From: Caldilineaceae bacterium
Lineage (GTDB): Bacteria > Chloroflexota > Anaerolineae > Caldilineales > Caldilineaceae
Direction of reading: 5' to 3'
Length of the DNA: 9,541 bases
Assembly: GCA_012032975.1 (NCBI GenBank)
Contig: JAAUPU010000049.1
Span: forward strand, 1-9,541
Within the stretch, counting starts at the first letter, position 1; the number at the start of each line of letters is the position of its first letter. The notes under the pieces are model-generated. The model was not told where the DNA came from. It worked only from the letters and a program-made list of their open reading frames with translations, and made no database searches. Shown here piece by piece: positions 1,304 through 9,541 of this stretch. Both the position numbers and the translations under genes were made by a program.

Positions 1304-1519
1304 CAGTCCTTCTTTCTCCTTTTCAGCGCGTGGATTCCAGGCCACATGACGGTCAACGACCACATGGTAGCATAAATCGGGGTCCGGCTACAATACACGA
1401 AGGATATGGGGAGAACTCGCACTCGTTGACAAAATGTCATTGGATACACGATACTTGTGTCCCGCTGCAAGCGGCTGGACCCCAAGAGGATCGACCCAAT
1501 AGCCAATCTGGAACGATGT
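1304..1519. other. Divergent intergenic region between the lipoprotein and the formate dehydrogenase genes
   Basis: This 216-bp region separates the minus-strand lipoprotein from the plus-strand dehydrogenase genes and should carry both promoters. The rightward promoter is listed separately. Leftward, only a loose TATGCT-like hexamer near 1366-1371 was seen, with no convincing -35 box at the right distance. A single CACGAAGG decamer (1396-1405) resembles the units of the repeat at 3920-3989 but may be chance. No ORF here looks real. Confidence 0.6.
1426..1455 (+). promoter_or_regulatory. Putative sigma-70 promoter for the formate dehydrogenase genes
   Basis: A perfect TTGACA (-35) at 1426-1431 is followed after 18 bases by GATACT (-10, four of six matches) at 1450-1455. 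Transcription would begin near 1462, leaving a leader of about 58 bases before the start at 1520. The -35 match is strong and the position is right, but no experimental support exists. Confidence 0.5.
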
Positions 1520-3226
1520 ATGGTCAATTCGACAAACCAAGAACTGATTGACCGCTGGCAGAGCCAGCCGGCCCCCTTGCTGCCGCTTCTGCACGCATTT
1601 CACCAGCGAGATGGCTACCTGTCGCCCGCGTCTATCAGCGAGATAGCTCAAGCACTGCGCATACCCATTGCCGACCTCTTTGGCACCGTCACCTTCTATC
1701 ACCACCTCTCTCGCACGCCGGACGGTCAGCTTGCTCCCCGCGTCTGCACCGGCCCGGTTTGTCGTCTGCGCGGTAGCGAAGCGCTGTTGGCAAGTCTGGC
1801 CGATCAGAAGGCAATTGCCATGCCTGCGCGGGGCGATGCGATGAACCGATCCCGGTGCTGATCGGCCAGGAGGCGCTGGTTGCCGGGCCAAGTAGCCAGT
1901 TGACGGCCCAACCCACCTTATTGCCGCCGCCCAATCCTGGGGGCCTGGAGGAGTGTGTCTTTCACGCCATCCGCGAGCCAGGCCGGGCTACCCTTGAGGG
2001 CTATCGACGCACAGGCGGCTATGCCGGTCTGACGCGAGTGCTGACGGAGATGACACCGACAGAGGTCGTCGAGTTTGTGCGCGCCAGCGGGTTGGCCGGG
2101 CGCGGCGGCGCAGGTTTTCCCACCGGTCTCAAGTGGAAGGCAGTCGCCGAAGCCGATGGCGCACCCAAGAGCATCGTCTGCAACGCGGATGAAGGCGAAC
2201 CCGGCTGCTTCAAGGACCGCGCCATCCTGGACCACGACCCCCACGCCATCATCGAGGGCATGTTGATCGCTGCCTATGCCACGGGCGCGACGCGCGGCTT
2301 CATCTATCTGCGCTACGAATATCCCCAGACCGAGGAAATTCTTGCGCGTGCGCTGACAGAAGCGTTCGATGCAGGCCTGCTGGGAGAAGCGATTCTTGGC
2401 AGCGACCTGACCTTTGAACTCTACATCCGCCGGGGGCGCGGGCGCCTACATCTGCGGCGAAGAGGGTTCGCTGCTCAACAGTCTGGAAGGCAAGCACCCG
2501 TTTCCGCGCAACCGCCCGCCCTACCCAGTGACCCACGGTTTCGAGAATCTGCCCACCGCGGTCAACAATGTGGAGACGTTGGCCTCCGTGCCACAAATCT
2601 TGCGCCGCTCGCCCGAATGGTACCAGGGCCTGGGGCTAGGCGAGCACGCCGGGTCCAAGGTGGTCAGCCTGTCGGGCGACATCCAGCGCCCTGGCAACTA
2701 CGAGGTTCCCTTTGGGCTGCCGCTGACCACCTTGCTCTACGAATGGGCGGGCGGCCCACCGGCTGGGCAGACGATCCAGGCGGTGACGATGGCCGGTCTA
2801 TCCGGCGGTTTTTTGGCAGGCGAAGCGCTGGCCACTCTCACTCTCGACGAGCCGAGCGTTCGCAGCAAGGGGTCGATGTTGGGCGCGGCCGGGATCATCG
2901 TCTTCGACGACCGCCGCAACATGGTAGAGGTGGCCCACAACGCGATGGAATTTTTCGCCCACGAATCGTGCGGCAAATGTTTCCCCTGTCGCATCGGAAC
3001 CACGCGCCTGGCCGAACGGTTGAACGGCGAGGCAGGACCGGACGATTTCGCATCGTGGAGCACAGAGATTCACGATTTGGGCAGGGTCATGAAGGCGACC
3101 AGCGCCTGCGGTCTCGGCATGGCCGCGCCGTTGGTGGCCGAAAGCCTGGTGCGCTATTTTCCTGACGAGGTGGCTGCACACGTCAAAGCTGCACGGGTCG
3201 ACCGGAATGGACGGGTCGAGAAATGA
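1520..3226 (+). CDS. NAD-linked formate dehydrogenase diaphorase subunit, NuoE-NuoF fusion (FdsB/HoxF-like), two frameshifts
   Basis: Flavoprotein subunit passing electrons from formate oxidation to NAD+. Residues 1-110 are a full NuoE-like [2Fe-2S] thioredoxin-fold domain with its helical N-terminus (LLPLLHAFHQRDGYLSPASI, VTFYHH), the pair C76-x4-C81 and the second pair CAGRC about 26 residues later. The NuoF part follows in the same chain: FMN/NAD motifs GRGGAGFPTGLKWKAV and NADEGEPGCFKDR, GAGAYICGEEGSLLNSLEG, and the [4Fe-4S] ligands ESCGKCFPCR plus a distal Cys in TSACGLG. Two indels interrupt it: one base missing between about 1811 and 1822, and one G too many in 2432-2436. After correction it is 568 residues. 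The architecture is that of HoxF; no C-terminal ferredoxin domain is present, unlike HydB-type bifurcating subunits. ATG 1520 is preferred for its position before the NuoE helix with GGA upstream; GTG 1457 is an in-frame alternative. The stop overlaps the next start (ATGA). With no hydrogenase genes nearby, a formate dehydrogenase role follows from the neighbours. Confidence 0.87.
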
Positions 3227-3897
3227 ACAGCGAGTCAAACAAGAGCCTGACCCTGACGTTGGATGGCCAGGTTGTCACCTTCGCCGTCGGTGAGACGATC
3301 TATGAGGTCGCCCAGCGCTACGGGAAAACGATCCCAACCCTTTGCTACGACCCACGGCTTGTGCCCTTTGGCGCCTGTCGCATCTGTCTGGTGGCGGTCC
3401 GCGGGGCGCGCAATCCGGTGGCCGCCTGCACCGCGCCGGCGGTTGTCGGGATGGAGGTTACCACGTCTACGCCGGAAGTCGACGTTTACCGCAAGATTCT
3501 TCTGGAGATGATCGTATCGGAAAACCCGCGGATCGAGGTCGATCCGCTGCGCAGCTACTCTTCGCAGGAATTGGCCCTGCTGGTCGAGCAATATGACGCA
3601 AAGGGCGGTCGCTTTGATGGCGCACATTCTGGCCAGAGTCGCCACGACGACGACAACCCTTTCCTCTTGCGCGATTACGACCTCTGCATCTCCTGTTACC
3701 GTTGCGTGCGCGTCTGCGCTGAACAGGAGGGCGACTATGCCATCAGCGTGGCCAACCGCGGTTTCCAGACGCAGATCGTCACCGAGTTCGATGGATTGCT
3801 GCGAGATTCAGCTTGCACCTTTTGCGGACAGTGTGTGCAGACTTGCCCCACCGGTGCGCTGGCCGACAAGAAGGCATTGCGCTTTGCCGAAATCTAA
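3223..3897 (+). CDS. Iron-sulfur electron-transfer subunit, HoxU / NuoG N-terminus-like (2Fe-2S plus two 4Fe-4S)
   Basis: Carries electrons between the catalytic subunit and the diaphorase. The 224-residue product is intact. Residues 8-80 are a plant-type [2Fe-2S] domain with C41, C52, C55 and C69. Residues 155-165 (CISCYRCVRVC) and 198-208 (CTFCGQCVQTC) form a two-cluster ferredoxin domain. Between them, about residues 95-125, lies the remnant of the NuoG His-Cys cluster segment, but the usual H-x3-C-x2-C-x5-C ligands are absent, so that cluster should be missing. In FdsA-type enzymes this module is fused to the N-terminus of the catalytic subunit; here it is a separate gene as in HoxU. Start and preceding stop overlap as ATGA, indicating translational coupling with the diaphorase. 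A 146-bp gap with a palindromic repeat follows before the catalytic gene. The domain call is secure; the partner is inferred from gene order. Confidence 0.88.
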   Translation: MNSESNKSLTLTLDGQVVTFAVGETIYEVAQRYGKTIPTLCYDPRLVPFGACRICLVAVRGARNPVAACTAPAVVGMEVTTSTPEVDVYRKILLEMIVSENPRIEVDPLRSYSSQELALLVEQYDAKGGRFDGAHSGQSRHDDDNPFLLRDYDLCISCYRCVRVCAEQEGDYAISVANRGFQTQIVTEFDGLLRDSACTFCGQCVQTCPTGALADKKALRFAEI

Positions 3898-3919
3898 GGC
3901 GGTCCAAAATAAAGTAGTC

Positions 3920-3989
3920 CATGAAGGGACACGAAGGTTCACGAAGGAATAAGCTTGGACTTCGTGCTTCTTCGTGGCCCTTCGTGGAT
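3920..3989. repeat. 70-bp palindromic element built of decamers (3 + spacer + 3 inverted)
   Basis: Three left decamers, CATGAAGGGA, CACGAAGGTT and CACGAAGGAA (3920-3949), a 10-base spacer TAAGCTTGGA (3950-3959), then three right decamers CTTCGTGCTT, CTTCGTGGCC and CTTCGTGGAT (3960-3989). The cores CACGAAG and CTTCGTG are inverted copies, so the arms fold into a stem of three 7-bp helices separated by 3-base, partly paired steps, with a 13-base loop; pairing can extend to 3917-3919. It lies between the HoxU-like and catalytic genes. The exact 10-bp spacing over 70 bases shows designed regularity rather than a simple terminator: no T tract follows. Confidence 0.85.
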
Positions 3990-4043: not shown

Positions 4044-6142
4044 ATGACAACCACCCTGCTTGCCAAAGAGATCCCGTTGCTCCACCGTGGCATCCACAAG
4101 ACCCGCTCGATCTGCGGCTATTGCGGCGTCGGCTGCTCGGTCGATATTCTCACCAGGGAGAACCGCATCGTCGGCATCCAGCCGGCCATGGATGGCCCGG
4201 CCAACGAAGGCGCGCTCTGCGTCAAGGGCCAGTTTGCCTATGACTACGTCCATCATCGCGACCGGCTCAAGCAGCCGCTGGTACGCGGCGCCGATGGGCA
4301 GTTCCGCGAGACAAGCTGGGACGAGGCGTTGACCGTTGCCGCCAATGGCTTTCGTCGCGCCGCGGAGGAGCATGGCCGCCACAGCATCTACGCCATTGCC
4401 TCTGGCCGCACACCCACCGAGGCGGACTACGCCATGCAGAAATTCATCCGCGCCGGTTTTGGCAGCCATCAGATCGACAACTGTAGCCGTGCTTGACACG
4501 CCCCCACCGTCGCCGGTCTGGCGGCAACCATCGGACGGGGCGCCATGTCCAATCCACTCAAGGACATGGAAAAACCGGATGTGATCTTCTGCATCGGCAC
4601 CAACATGACCGAGTGTCACCCGGTCGCGGCGACGCGGCTGAAGAAGGCGCTGGCCCGCGGCGCCAAGCTGATCGTCGCCGACCCGCGGCGCATCCGCCTG
4701 GCAGAGATGGCCGACATCTATCTGCCGTTGCGCGTGGGGTCAGACACCGCGTTGCTGCTGGCCATGGCCCACGTCATCGCGCGCGAAGAATTGCTCGACG
4801 AGGAGTTCGTGGCGAAGCGCACGACGGGCGTCGTCGATTTCCTGGAGCATGTGAAGCAGTTCACACCCGCGTGGGCAGAGACGATCTCCGGCGTGCGCGC
4901 AGCGGATATCGAAGCGGCGGCGCTGCTCTATGGCCGCGCCGAGCGGGGGTGCGGTCTACTACACCCTGGGCATCACCGAGCATATTTGCGGGGTGGACAA
5001 TGTGCAGAGCCTCTGCAACCTGGTCTTGATGACGGGCAATATCGGTCGCGAAGGCACGGGCATCAACCCCATGCGCGGTCAGAACAACATCCAGGGCGCT
5101 GGCGACAGCGGCGCGTTGCCCAACAACTATGCCGGTTTCCAGGCGGTGGATGACCCCAATTCCAGGCCAAGTTTAGCCGCCTGTACGGGCGCCAGATGGA
5201 CAGCGAGCGGGGCATCACCAAAGTGACTGCGCTGGAGCGATCCGGCGAATCGATCCGCGCCATGCTCATCGACGGCGAGAATACCCTCGTCTCCGACCCG
5301 GACCGCACCCACGGCGAACACGCACTGCGCAGCCTGGACCACCTGGTCGTGATCGACATCTTCCTCACCGAGACCGCTGAACTGGCCGATGTGGTGCTGC
5401 CGGCCACGGCGTGGGCCGAAACCGACGGCACCTTCACCAATACCGAGCGGCGCATCCAGCGAGTGCGCAAGGCGGTCGAGCCGCCGGCGAGGCGCGGCCA
5501 GACTGGTGGATCATCAGCCAATTGGCCAGGCGGCTGGGGATTCCGGGTTTTGATTATGCCGGCCCGGACGACGTTTTCAACGAGATGTGCAGTGTATCGC
5601 CCACCTATGCGGGGATGGACTGGGAGCTGGCCGCAACCGGCCAATATCAATGGCCGATTCCCTATCGCGGTCACCCCGGCACCCCCCGGCTGCACGAAGA
5701 TGAGTTCATCAACGGTCGCGGCAAGTTCTCTATCGTCGGTTACCGCGACCCAGCCGAGACCATCGACGACGACTACCCGGTCTGGCTGACCACCGGACGC
5801 AGACTGGCGTCCTATCATACCCGCACCCAGACGGGTCGCTCAGCAGGCATCGACTATCTGCTGCCAGAAGAATTGCTGGAAGTCCACCCGGACGATGTGG
5901 CCGCGTGGGGGTTGGAAGATGGTGGCTGGGCGCGTATGGCCAGTCGCCGCGGTTCGGTGCTGGTCAAGGTGCAAGCGACCCAACGCTCCCAGCCGGGCAC
6001 CGTCTTTGCCAGCTTCAGCTTCGACGATGTCCCCATCAACGTACTCACCGGCTCGGGGTACGACCCGGTCACCCAGACGGCCGAGCTGAAAGTCTGCCCG
6101 GTGCGGGTCGAGGCTGCCATGCCGCCCGCAGGTGCTGGTTAG
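4044..6142 (+). CDS. fdhA: Formate dehydrogenase catalytic subunit, selenocysteine-containing, Mo/W-bis-MGD; three frameshifts
   Basis: Oxidises formate to CO2, or runs in reverse, at a bis-MGD molybdenum or tungsten centre. The N-terminus carries a [4Fe-4S] motif C24-x2-C27-x3-C31 and C59 followed by Lys61, the conserved electron-relay lysine. The active site reads NCSRA-(TGA)-HAPTVAGL: the TGA at 4494-4496 (residue 151) stands exactly where E. coli FdhF has Sec140 and other family members have Cys, and the conserved His follows. Reading continues in the same frame past it. The substrate-binding Arg lies in [16 protein letters not shown]; later motifs include [32 protein letters not shown] and the C-terminal cofactor-binding domain ([10 protein letters not shown]). 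Indels: one G extra in 4945-4949, one base missing near 5155-5160, one G missing near 5486. Corrected length is 699 residues, close to FdhF (715) and without the N-terminal ferredoxin extension of FdsA. AAGGA at 4029-4033 precedes the ATG by ten bases. fdhD follows after three bases. Confidence 0.92.
4494..4496 (+). other. Selenocysteine codon (TGA) at the formate dehydrogenase active site
   Basis: The frame is unbroken from ATG 4044 through this TGA and onward to position 4945. Flanking residues (N-C-x-R-x-U-H-x-P-T-V-A-G-L) match the family's active-site signature. The codon needs only a third-base change to be Cys, the other residue used here in the family. Errors elsewhere in this window are indels, not substitutions, which makes a false stop here less likely. 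Confidence 0.87.
4497..4542 (+). promoter_or_regulatory. Bacterial SECIS-like stem-loop directly after the UGA
   Basis: The upper stem pairs 4509-4514 (GUCGCC) with 4520-4525 (GGCGGC), closing a loop GGUCU at 4515-4519. A 2-bp helix (4507-4508 with 4533-4534) and a lower 6-bp helix (4499-4504 with 4537-4542) extend it. In E. coli fdhF the SelB-binding SECIS also shows GGUC in the apical loop, and the codons align without gaps from UGA to the loop, so the loop lies at the same distance. The fold was derived by eye. Confidence 0.72.
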
Positions 6143-6145
6143 GGT

Positions 6146-6988
6146 ATGAGCCGCCAGAGCCGCGACAAACGGCGCATCGCTGTTTTTGCAGATGGTAAAC
6201 GTCAGGCCAAGAGTGACTATCTCGCCGGTGAAGAGCCGCTGGAAATTCAACTGCGCGCCGGCGGAGAGACGCAGACCGTCGCCATCACCATGCGCACGCC
6301 GGGCAACGACTACGAATTGGCCGCGGGGTTTCTATTTAACGAAGGGATCGTCGCGGCCAAGCACGATGTCGGACAGATGATCTATTGCGTCGATGGCCGC
6401 CTCGATCTCCAGGAGTACAACCTGCTGCGCGTCGATCTCAACTTTCCTCGCCTCCCCGATCTCCACCACCTGGATCGTCACTTCTTCACTACCAGCGCGT
6501 GCGGCGTCTGTGGCCGGACCATGCTGGAGCATCTGGAAACGCGACGGCTGGAGCCGTTGACGAGCGGGCCGGCGGTCAGCGTGGGTCTGCTGCTCAGTCT
6601 GCCGGCAAAGCTGCGCCAGGCCCAGCAGCTTTTCGCCAGCACCGGGGGTCTACATGCCGCGGCGCTCTTCGACCGCGAAGGGACGCTGCTGCAAGTGCGC
6701 GAGGATGTAGGTCGTCACAACGCGCTGGACAAGCTGATCGGCTGGGGGATGCTCAACGGACAACTCCCCTTCGCCGGGGGGATCGTGCTGGTCAGCGGGC
6801 GGGCCAGCTACGAACTGTTGCAGAAATGTCGGGTTGCGGCCGCGCCGATCCTGTGCGCTGTCTCCGCGCCGAGCACTCTGGCCGTCGATCTGGCCGAGCA
6901 TTTTGGGATCACACTGGTGGGGTTCCTGCGCGAGTCGAGCTTTAATGTGTACAGTGGGAGCGAGCGAATTGCATGGATCGACGATTGA
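6146..6988 (+). CDS. fdhD: FdhD, sulfur carrier / sulfurtransferase for formate dehydrogenase activation
   Basis: Binds the Mo/W-bis-MGD cofactor and transfers sulfur from a cysteine desulfurase to it, a step required for formate dehydrogenase activity in the cytoplasm. The 280-residue product is intact and close to the family's usual 270-280. Visible hallmarks are GEEPLEIQL near residue 28, MRTPGNDYELAAGFLFNEGI near 50-70, the catalytic cysteine motif SACGVCGR near residues 117-124, GGLHAAALFD, REDVGRHNALDKLIG, VLVSGRASYELLQKC and a C-terminal RESSFNVYSG. The start lies three bases after the stop of the catalytic gene, with a weak TAGGG upstream, so it is very probably co-transcribed and translationally coupled. 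The pairing with a catalytic subunit is classic. One of only two genes in the window without an apparent frameshift. Confidence 0.96.
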   Translation: MSRQSRDKRRIAVFADGKRQAKSDYLAGEEPLEIQLRAGGETQTVAITMRTPGNDYELAAGFLFNEGIVAAKHDVGQMIYCVDGRLDLQEYNLLRVDLNFPRLPDLHHLDRHFFTTSACGVCGRTMLEHLETRRLEPLTSGPAVSVGLLLSLPAKLRQAQQLFASTGGLHAAALFDREGTLLQVREDVGRHNALDKLIGWGMLNGQLPFAGGIVLVSGRASYELLQKCRVAAAPILCAVSAPSTLAVDLAEHFGITLVGFLRESSFNVYSGSERIAWIDD

Positions 6989-7049: not shown

Positions 7050-7663
7050 ATGCTGGCACAGACTCGTGTTGAAGTAGCCGAACGTTTGACGGCCGCGGAG
7101 TTTTTGAAGATGCCCCCGAAGACCGAAAAGCTGAACTGATTGAAGGAGTAATGGTGATGCCTTCTCCCCCGATGGTGACCCATGAAAAACTGTTCTCGTT
7201 TTTGTATCGACTGTTAGGCGATTTTGTTGAAGAACTCGACCTCGGCGTGGTGCTTGGTTCACGCACAGCCGCCGAACTCGAACCAAATAACGTGCCAGAG
7301 CCGGACATTCTTTTCGTGACCAAGGACCGCGCTGGAATCATCCAAGAAAAGGGCGTGATCGGCGCACCGGACCTGGTGATCGAAATTCTCTCGGCGAGCA
7401 CGGTGCGCAACGATCGCGGGCCAAAGTTCGCAGCTTACGAGCGGGCCGGCGTGCGCGAACTCTGGCTGATCGACCCGTATGGACCGACGGGCACTGAGTT
7501 TTATCAGTTGGCAGGCAATCGCTTCCAACCCGTAGCGCCAGACGCGGAGAATATTCTTCACTCATCGACTGTGGCAGGTTTTTGGATCGATGTGAACTGG
7601 CTGTGGCCGGCCGAGCAATTCGTCTCGGTGCGCGGTGCGTTGACGCAAATTATGGATGGTTGA
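7050..7663 (+). CDS. Uma2-family (DUF820) PD-(D/E)XK nuclease-fold protein, one frameshift
   Basis: Member of the Uma2/DUF820 family, which has a restriction-endonuclease-like fold; its biological role is not established. The start at 7050 has a strong GGAGG six to seven bases upstream. The first 22 codons (to the ATG at 7110-7112) are followed by a C run at 7113-7117 with one base missing; restoring it joins PPEDRKAELIEGVMVMPSPP to the rest, giving 204 residues, normal for the family. Typical motifs follow: the early Glu in ELIEG, the Asp in PEPDILFV, D-x-x-I-E-I-L-S in PDLVIEILSAST, the Lys in GPKFAAYERAGVRELWLID. These supply the acidic and lysine residues expected of the nuclease core. 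It stands alone with its own promoter and terminator, so a link with formate metabolism is unlikely. Family call is secure. Confidence 0.88.
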
Positions 7664-7735: not shown

Positions 7736-9541
7736 TCAGACTTGCAGCGCGTAGTGTTCCTGCAAACTACGCACGCGCAGCTCGCGCTGGCGCAGCGCGG
7801 TGATACCGTTGACCGCAGCCTGCGCCGCGGAGAGCGTGGTGATCAACGGCACTTCCTCGCGTGTGGCGAGACGGCGAATCTTGGCGCCATCCTCTCGGCT
7901 GTCTGCGCCCAATGGTGTGTTGACGATCAGCTGAATCTTGCCCTCGCGGATCGCATCCAGCGTGGTGTAGCCTTCGGCGCCGGCGATCGCCTTCGCCAGC
8001 GTCGTCACCGGGATGCCGGTGCGCTCGATGAAGTGGCCGGTGCCCGCGGTCGCGTAGATGGTGAAGCCCATCCGATGGAGGTCGCGCGCGATCTTGAGTG
8101 CGCCGCCCTTGTCGAAATCGTTCACCGTGATCAGCACGCCGCCTTCTAGCGGCAAGCCAGTGCCCGCGCCAAGTTGGCTCTTGGCGAATGCGTGGCCAAA
8201 ACGGGAGGCGCTGACCCATCACCTCGCCAGTGGAGCGCATTTCCGGCCCCAGCAGCGCATCGATGCCGGTGAATTTTTTCCAGGGCAGCACCGCCTCTTT
8301 CACAAAGAAACCGTCCACCTCTGGCTCGGTCAACAGGTTAAGTTCCTTGAGACTCTTGCCCGCCATGACCTGTGCAGCGATCTTGGCCAACGGCTTGCCC
8401 GTCGCCTTGCTGACAAAGGGACCGTCCGGCTGGCCCGCGGGTTGACCTCCAGCACGTAGACAACATCGTCTTTGATGGCATATTGAACATTCATCAGCCC
8501 GCGCACGCCCAGCGCCATGCCAAGCTGCTCGGTGTATTCGCGCAGAATGTTGAGATGATAGTTGCCGATCTTGTAGGGCGGCAGCACGCACGCGCTGTCG
8601 CCGCTGTGGATGCCCGCTTCCTCGATGTGTTGCATGATGCCGCCGACGACCACCCGGTTCGCCGTCGCAGATTGCGTCCACATCCACCTCGAACGCATCC
8701 TCCAGGAACTGGTCGATCAGGATCGCCCGATCTGCCGAGACGGACATGGCTTCATCCATGTACGAACGCAGCGCGGTGGCATCATCGACCACAGCCATGG
8801 CCCGGCCGCCCAGTACGTATGAGGGCCGCACGACCACTGGATAGCCCACCTGCTCGGCGACTGTGATGGCTTCCGCGGTCGAGCGCGCCACGCCGTGGTT
8901 GGGCGCGGGGATGTCCAGCCGTTCCAGCAATTCGCCAAACTGGTCTCGATCTTCGGCCAGGTCGATGGCCTCCGGCAACGTGCCCAGGATCGGCACGCCG
9001 GCGCGTTGCAGGCTGTCGGCCAGATTGAGCGGCGTCTGCCCGCCATATTGCACGATCACGCCGTGGAGATCGCCGGCGCTCTGCTCGCGCTCCACGATGT
9101 TGAGCACATCTTCGAAGGTCAATGGCTCGAAGTAGAGGCGGTCGCTGGTGTCGTAGTCGGTGCTGACCGTCTCCGGGTTGCAGTTGACCATGATGGTCTC
9201 GTAGCCAAGCTCCTGCAAGGCAAAGCTGGCGTGGCAACAGCAATAGTCGAACTCGATGCCCTGGCCGATACGATTGGGACCGCCGCCCAAGATCATGATC
9301 TTGGGCCGGTCGGTGGGTGCGGCTTCGCTTTCGCTTTCATAGCTGCTGTAGAGATAGGGCGTGTGCGCCTCGAACTCGGCGGCGCAGGTGTCCACCTGAT
9401 GATAGGTGGGGGTGACGCCAAGCGCCTTGCGCAGGCCGCGGATGTCGGTTTCAGAGATTGGCGATTGGAGATTGACGATTGGCGTGTCGCTGCTGAACTC
9501 CAATCTCTGATCTCCAATCGCCTGGTTGCAGAGGCGGGCCA
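7736..9541 (-). CDS. carB: Carbamoyl-phosphate synthase large subunit, C-terminal half, partial at right edge, three frameshifts
   Basis: Makes carbamoyl phosphate from bicarbonate, ammonia and two ATP for pyrimidine and arginine synthesis, as the large subunit of CarAB. The visible 600 or so codons correspond to roughly the second half of E. coli CarB (1073 residues). In order: the segment before the second ATP-grasp unit, [103 protein letters not shown], then the C-terminal MGS-like allosteric domain ([30 protein letters not shown]) ending at the TGA complement of 7736-7738. Indels: one C extra in 8653-8655, one base missing at 8418-8420 and one at 8215-8217; all occur at sites where family conservation fixes the true frame. 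An insertion of about 18 residues relative to E. coli is encoded by a palindromic repeat at 9461-9521. No other pyrimidine or arginine gene is visible. Confidence 0.95.
9461..9521. repeat. Palindromic repeat element inside the carB coding sequence
   Basis: Two 22-base arms (9461-9482 and 9500-9521) are inverted copies with 18 of 22 bases matching and a 17-base loop (9483-9499). The arms are built from GATTGGAGAT-type words, and a further CAGAGATTGG copy at 9452-9461 suggests the element extends left. The reading frame of carB stays open through it. The bases are poorer in GC than the surrounding gene. Confidence 0.8.

Follow-up and report, generated by a model that had tools for sequence, protein, structure and literature searches.

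A putative selenocysteine codon and its downstream hairpin in a formate dehydrogenase operon from a Caldilineaceae genome

Organization of the locus

The stretch of DNA analysed here (the window, 9,541 nucleotides of contig JAAUPU010000049.1 from a Caldilineaceae bacterium) carries nuoE-nuoF, hoxU, fdhA and fdhD in a row on the plus strand (Table 1). In fdhA, the Pfam domains Molybdop_Fe4S4 and Molybdopterin occupy the first part and Molydop_binding the last, and TIGR01591 is the best NCBIfam match of both pieces of the gene (330.4 and 158 bits). Each piece is cut by a frame shift, so that the whole-protein cut-off of 666 is out of reach. NuoE-like, NuoF-like and HoxU-like parts beside FdhA make up a layout of the Fds type, as recognized through Pfam; with NCBIfam, the cut pieces and the HoxU-like gene score below the curated cut-offs. 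Judging from its sequence, the operon looks like that of an NAD-linked enzyme with a NuoE-NuoF fusion, a HoxU-like and an FdhA subunit, accompanied by FdhD. The imperfect inverted repeat between hoxU and fdhA is perhaps unrelated to the decoding of selenocysteine (Sec).

Table 1. Features of the formate dehydrogenase locus (positions in the window).
Feature	Position	Strand	Basis and details
nuoE-nuoF fusion (thioredoxin-like 2Fe-2S, FMN-binding, SLBB and 4Fe-4S domains)	1457..3226	+	Domain and family matches
hoxU-like electron-transfer subunit (2Fe-2S and 4Fe-4S)	3223..3897	+	HoxU NF005745, 152.9 bits, below cut-off 333
Imperfect inverted repeat between hoxU and fdhA	3918..3988	.	Arms 3918-3946 / 3960-3988, 29 nt, 83% complementary, CACGAAG/CTTCGTG
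fdhA, molybdopterin formate dehydrogenase catalytic subunit (short form)	4044..6142	+	Pfam domains; TIGR01591 best NCBIfam match
TGA, very probably a Sec codon (residue 151 counted from ATG 4044)	4494..4496	+	Alignment with solved formate dehydrogenases; TGA in 80/80 kept relatives
bSECIS-type hairpin	4509..4525	+	Arms 4509-4514 / 4520-4525 (6 bp), loop GGUCU 4515-4519, 18 nt after TGA; comparative pairing, RNAalifold
fdhD, formate dehydrogenase accessory sulfurtransferase	6146..6988	+	NF001943, 286.6 bits, cut-off 269

Outside the operon, the minus strand of positions 2-1363 holds pieces of two related family-3 solute-binding proteins, arranged in tandem and spread over several frames (51 of 68 residues identical), and a gene for a Uma2-family putative endonuclease is found at 7151-7663. 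The window ends within a carB fragment (7736-9541).

Relatives and placement of the window

A scan of GTDB contigs found 107 relatives of the locus, 80 of which were kept; the codon counts given below cover those 80, the other 27 being left out. By record title they belong to Chloroflexota (32), Gemmatimonadota (21), Verrucomicrobiota (14), Latescibacterota (6), Poribacteria (3), Planctomycetota (2) and Handelsmaniibacteriota (1), seven phyla in all, with one title without group. The content of the operon can be followed through these loci. A hoxU homologue is present in all 66 with more than 4.2 kb before the TGA; nuoE and nuoF are both found in 59 of the same 66, and in each of those 59 they share one stop-free frame. 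Behind the TGA, 67 loci extend for more than 4.5 kb; 43 of these contain fdhD at some place, on either strand and in some cases upstream.

In a protein tree built by a quick method, the window adjoins L001 (support 84, not starred), a metagenome-assembled genome titled Caldilineaceae with 81% identity across 283 columns, and forms one group with the 32 Chloroflexota rows (support 99). The carB fragment was compared separately in 45 genomes and matched in 37; those lacking a match at 1e-40 are eight members of the L001 family. Identity to genomes of that family is 69-84% (25 of 33 matched, with the 84% values coming from partial stretches) and to genomes outside it 59-66% (12 of 12 matched). 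By sequence identity, the nearest relatives of the window's carB are therefore in the L001 family, L001 itself being titled Caldilineaceae, Chloroflexota. The original prediction, made from the letters of the DNA without knowledge of their origin, had guessed at a Chloroflexota host, which fits with both carB and the protein tree.

The L001 family comprises 46 genomes in this analysis: 35 have a TGA copy of fdhA, two have only a stop-free homologue of 39-41% identity (codon TGC), and nine have none at E 1e-60.

Frame shifts in the window

Several genes of the window are broken by changes of frame. The fdhA gene shifts three times, at about 4943-4950, 5154-5190 and 5486 (frames 3, 1, 3 and 2 in order), nuoEF shifts near 1825-1834 and 2427-2435 (frames 2, 1 and 2), and the carB fragment is spread over several frames when the ORF list is inspected by eye, its Pfam D2 match breaking at profile position 103 of 211. 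All three genes are open in relatives. The frame shifts are most simply assembly errors, and the assembly of the window is likely to be error-prone. Alternatively, the shifts in fdhA and nuoEF may be real mutations in a decaying pseudogene, whose TGA was formerly a Sec codon. However, carB, which we would expect to be needed, is frame-shifted too, hoxU and fdhD run without interruption, and 33 of the 35 TGA copies in the L001 family are open across the TGA, with lengths of 663 to 1023 residues (the other two, of 529 and 242, lie at contig ends). Decay of the operon is therefore improbable, and assembly error is the preferred reading of the frame shifts.

The active-site codon

The reading frame that opens at the ATG of fdhA runs to 4958 with the TGA as its sole stop. 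In the mechanical ORF list, one ORF ends at 4496 and the next ATG ORF of the same frame starts from 4545; an automatic caller would split the gene, as had been foreseen. The further claim that the frame continues with perfect family motifs holds for about 150 codons. Homology of this frame to relatives ends at about 4946, and beyond that the claim fails owing to the frame shifts.

When aligned to solved formate dehydrogenases, residue 151 falls opposite the Cys of HDCR FdhF (7qv7, 9.6e-73) and opposite X, which stands for Sec, in 9t1s and in E. coli FdhH (1aa6). A His follows directly in all three. The original prediction had placed the TGA exactly at the active-site Cys codon, ahead of the conserved His, and had proposed an alignment with Sec and Cys enzymes as a check; the alignment bears this out. 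The motif UHxP, described as the active-site motif of the formate dehydrogenase alpha subunit with either Sec or Cys (TIGR01591 family; PMC13188914), is present in the window as U-H-A-P.

The codon at this position is TGA in all 80 kept relatives. Further homologues were collected from 400 Chloroflexota genomes (at most five candidates scored in each), which gave matches at 1e-70 in 30 genomes and 31 rows, 13 with one TGA and 18 stop-free. Codon and hairpin were compared in the 18 stop-free rows, the two stop-free L001-family rows and 11 of the 13 TGA rows (G001 and G007 left out). All 20 stop-free homologues have TGC or TGT as the active-site codon and none of them has GGTCT 18 nt behind it, while all 11 TGA homologues carry GGTCT at this distance, with stems of 6-8 bp (third-base pair G-C in six, C-G in four and T-A in one). 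The pattern is that of a selenoprotein, with an in-frame TGA at a Cys position that is shared by 80 of 80 and 11 of 11 relatives and has TGC or TGT as its counterpart in the stop-free homologues. A Cys-type formate dehydrogenase from one Chloroflexota genome (L166) has a GGACT hairpin 18 nt behind its TGC, perhaps a SECIS left behind when Sec was exchanged for Cys; such a relic of a former Sec site has been described for another FdhA (PMC1794560).

Could the TGA be a misread or misassembled Cys codon, TGC or TGT? The base accuracy of the window looks low, given the three frame shifts in fdhA, the two in nuoEF and the state of carB. However, the conservation of the TGA in every kept relative and the intact hairpin behind it, the loop of which the 20 Cys homologues do not have, make such an error very improbable; a base error at 4494-4496 is excluded only by way of these relatives and the hairpin. 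A genome-wide reassignment of TGA (for example to Trp or Gly), in place of site-specific Sec, is vanishingly improbable. The open frame across a single TGA would by itself allow it and nothing further was found in its favor, whereas the nuoEF, fdhD and Uma2 genes all end at TGA, which therefore also serves as a stop in the window. Moreover, the aligned residue is Cys or X in the solved enzymes, and tRNA-Sec, selA, selB and selD are found in relatives (see below). The mid-gene TGA of the formate dehydrogenase is very probably read as Sec.

The hairpin downstream of the TGA

The codons GTN-GCC-GGT-CTG-GCN start 12 nt past the TGA, with GCC replaced by GTC in 3 of 81 sequences (the 80 relatives and the window; 65 distinct over 54 nt). 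The 6-bp stem is paired in all 81, and the loop reads GGTCT in all but one, where it is GGACT. One pair of the stem joins two synonymous third-base positions and occurs in three types, C-G in 59 sequences, T-A in 20 and G-C in two, the underlying codon pairs being GTC/GCG, GTT/GCA and GTG/GCC, respectively; in the 32 Chloroflexota rows among the 80 relatives it is always C-G. Third bases hardly vary in the codons of the loop and inner stem (entropy 0 to 0.1), while most neighboring variable codons have values of 1.3-1.9. On the protein tree, the left third base changes nine times, the right nine times and both jointly nine times. The changes at this pair are thus compensatory throughout, few of them falling on well-supported branches (just one of seven independent pairs lies on starred branches).

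In a shuffle test with 18 sequences picked for variety, none of 500 shuffles equaled the real sequences in their share of paired cells or in covariation score; the pair count and pair-type measures of the same test were unremarkable, being reached by 452 and 478 of 500 shuffles. From the 81 sequences together, RNAalifold predicts the 4509-4525 hairpin and no other structure. Folded alone, the window's 42 nt counted from the TGA favor a different register (-11.3 kcal/mol, z +0.68), with 144 of 200 shuffles at least as stable. Lone folding thus does not favor the hairpin, which calls for comparative tests. The hairpin is part of the single-sequence optimum in 58 of the 81 sequences, the window not among them, and its energy is at most -7.5 kcal/mol in 78 of the 81.

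The bSECIS model, as given in PMC13188914, comprises a loop of 3-9 nt, a stem of 4-16 bp, a G in the first two loop positions, a UGA-to-loop distance of 16-37 nt, and an energy of -7.5 kcal/mol or lower. The hairpin of the window agrees with each element (loop of 5 nt, stem of 6 bp, GG, 18 nt and -8.9 kcal/mol). At -7.5 kcal/mol or better, the same loose model also fits 51 of 298 other codons of fdhA, 27 of them with hairpins at least as stable, so that the model by itself proves little. The combination of TGA, 18 nt, GGTCT and a stem of 6 bp or more is found a single time in the window when both strands are counted, and never in 300 mononucleotide shuffles. Rfam at the gathering threshold gave no match in the window.

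Selenocysteine machinery in related genomes

The original prediction implied selA, selB, selC and selD elsewhere in the genome of the window. These genes for Sec synthesis and insertion were searched in the genomes of relatives, namely 29 that account for 29 of the 80 loci, and in 14 control genomes. Both tRNA-Sec and selB are over the cut-off in 29 of 29 relatives' genomes, and selA and selD in 28 each, the one genome without either being G008. The best tRNA-Sec match per genome reaches at least 50.7 bits. The tRNA-Sec model is also over the cut-off in 5 of the 14 controls, some of which are presumably not users of Sec; by itself, tRNA-Sec is therefore a weak marker. Among the controls, selB and selD pass in two each and selA in one (E. 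coli), and selA is the cleanest marker. ARAGORN calls a tRNA-Sec with anticodon tca in all 12 loci that it was given, which cover 12 of the 29 genomes, and in 12 of 13 loci from a tRNA-Sec scan that included the controls. Within the window it finds no tRNA.

In 24 of the 28 genomes with selD, the match to this gene runs through one in-frame TGA. In the genome of L065, titled Verrucomicrobiae, the selA match also has one in-frame TGA (G027:C26:86621-87922), which is an error or an odd case, and the selD of that contig is in two pieces.

In the L001 family, selA is over the cut-off in 42 of 46 genomes, and 7 of the 11 genomes without a TGA copy have tRNA-Sec over the cut-off. These seven (G043, G045, G049, G051, G055, G056 and G058) have no TGA formate dehydrogenase of the clade at 1e-60. 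A further genome without a TGA copy, G053, is below the tRNA-Sec cut-off, and ARAGORN calls a tRNA-Ser there. The Sec machinery is thus not tied to fdhA. A contrast of sel genes present or absent according to the absence of fdhA was tried and is not clean, the machinery often being kept without a TGA copy. SelA and SelB are also reported in most bins of sponge symbionts, in a study whose table lists two Caldilineaceae bins, MPML and MPMO, that may or may not be among them (PMC5649159); the accessions given there match L019 and L056 of the present set.

Proposed mechanism and comparison with known systems

The position of the codon, the conservation of the TGA, the hairpin and its third-base covariation, the sel genes of related genomes and the operon content in relatives together support the selenocysteine formate dehydrogenase originally predicted. 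It is almost certain that the TGA encodes Sec. This residue would bind the metal, Mo or W, in a formate dehydrogenase that is probably soluble and linked to NAD, and SelB would insert it by way of the hairpin. In the organism of the window, SelB carrying Sec-tRNA (anticodon UCA) would bind the mRNA hairpin at 4509-4525 and insert Sec at the UGA. Electrons from formate would then pass to the HoxU-like iron-sulfur subunit and on to the NuoEF-like diaphorase, which would reduce NAD+, presumably in the soluble compartment of the cell, while FdhD would aid in maturation of the cofactor.

The catalytic subunit is homologous to E. coli FdhH (FdhF, 1aa6, with Sec), at 224 bits over query residues 19-301 and with X-His aligned at residue 151. 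The FdhH gene has a hairpin with a GGUCU loop at a like distance. FdhH belongs to formate-hydrogen lyase, whereas fdhA of the window has NuoEF and a HoxU-like module alongside. A similar layout is that of Rhodobacter capsulatus FdsABG (6tg9), which like the window combines a catalytic with HoxU-like, NuoF-like and NuoE-like parts (P0001 against 6tg9, 7e-60). FdsABG is described as an NAD+-dependent formate dehydrogenase whose FdsA subunit carries the HoxU-like part at its N-terminus; its NuoE-like component is a subunit of its own, FdsG, and the thioredoxin-like N-terminus of FdsB has no cluster (PMC7171172). Differently to FdsABG, HoxU is a gene of its own in the window, NuoE is fused to NuoF and the enzyme would contain Sec.

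In the same phylum as the window and in another order, the Anaerolineales single-cell genomes An-B16, An-B22 and An-K11 are reported to encode Sec formate dehydrogenases, with Sec annotated at the active site, and the enzyme of An-B22 has been hypothesized to be NAD-dependent (PMC4959059, PMC5736913); the likeness is one of description. Sec formate dehydrogenases are known in bacteria and, according to these reports, already published for Chloroflexi, and the mechanism is well known, while the host family is little studied. Among the matches listed by a literature search, no description of this Caldilineaceae enzyme was found. FdhA is described as among the most widespread bacterial selenoproteins or as the most widespread (PMC5029168, PMC13188914); the window adds a Caldilineaceae operon to this family, together with an example of a gene that a plain ORF caller splits.

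Relation to oxygen

A COX1-family protein is found at E 1e-50 or better in all 29 relatives' genomes, and in 8 of the 14 controls too. The COX1 family also takes in nitric oxide reductases, so that oxygen respiration is suggested and not demonstrated in the genomes of the clade. Aerobes and anaerobes are reported to occur in similar proportions among users of Sec (40.4% and 35.8%; PMC5029168), and Sec formate dehydrogenases are described as rather oxygen sensitive (PMC7171172). It is conceivable, if unlikely, that the clade represents NAD-linked formate dehydrogenases, Sec-type in every member examined (80 of 80), that work in air in seemingly oxygen-respiring organisms. If true, an oxygen-tolerant Sec formate dehydrogenase would be widespread, contrary to the view of the Sec forms as rather sensitive. 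The tolerance of these enzymes to oxygen bears on their use for CO2 reduction, and the clade, with its invariant TGA, a NuoE-NuoF fusion in 59 of the 59 loci where both parts are found and a COX1-family protein in each of the 29 genomes, is a place to test it.
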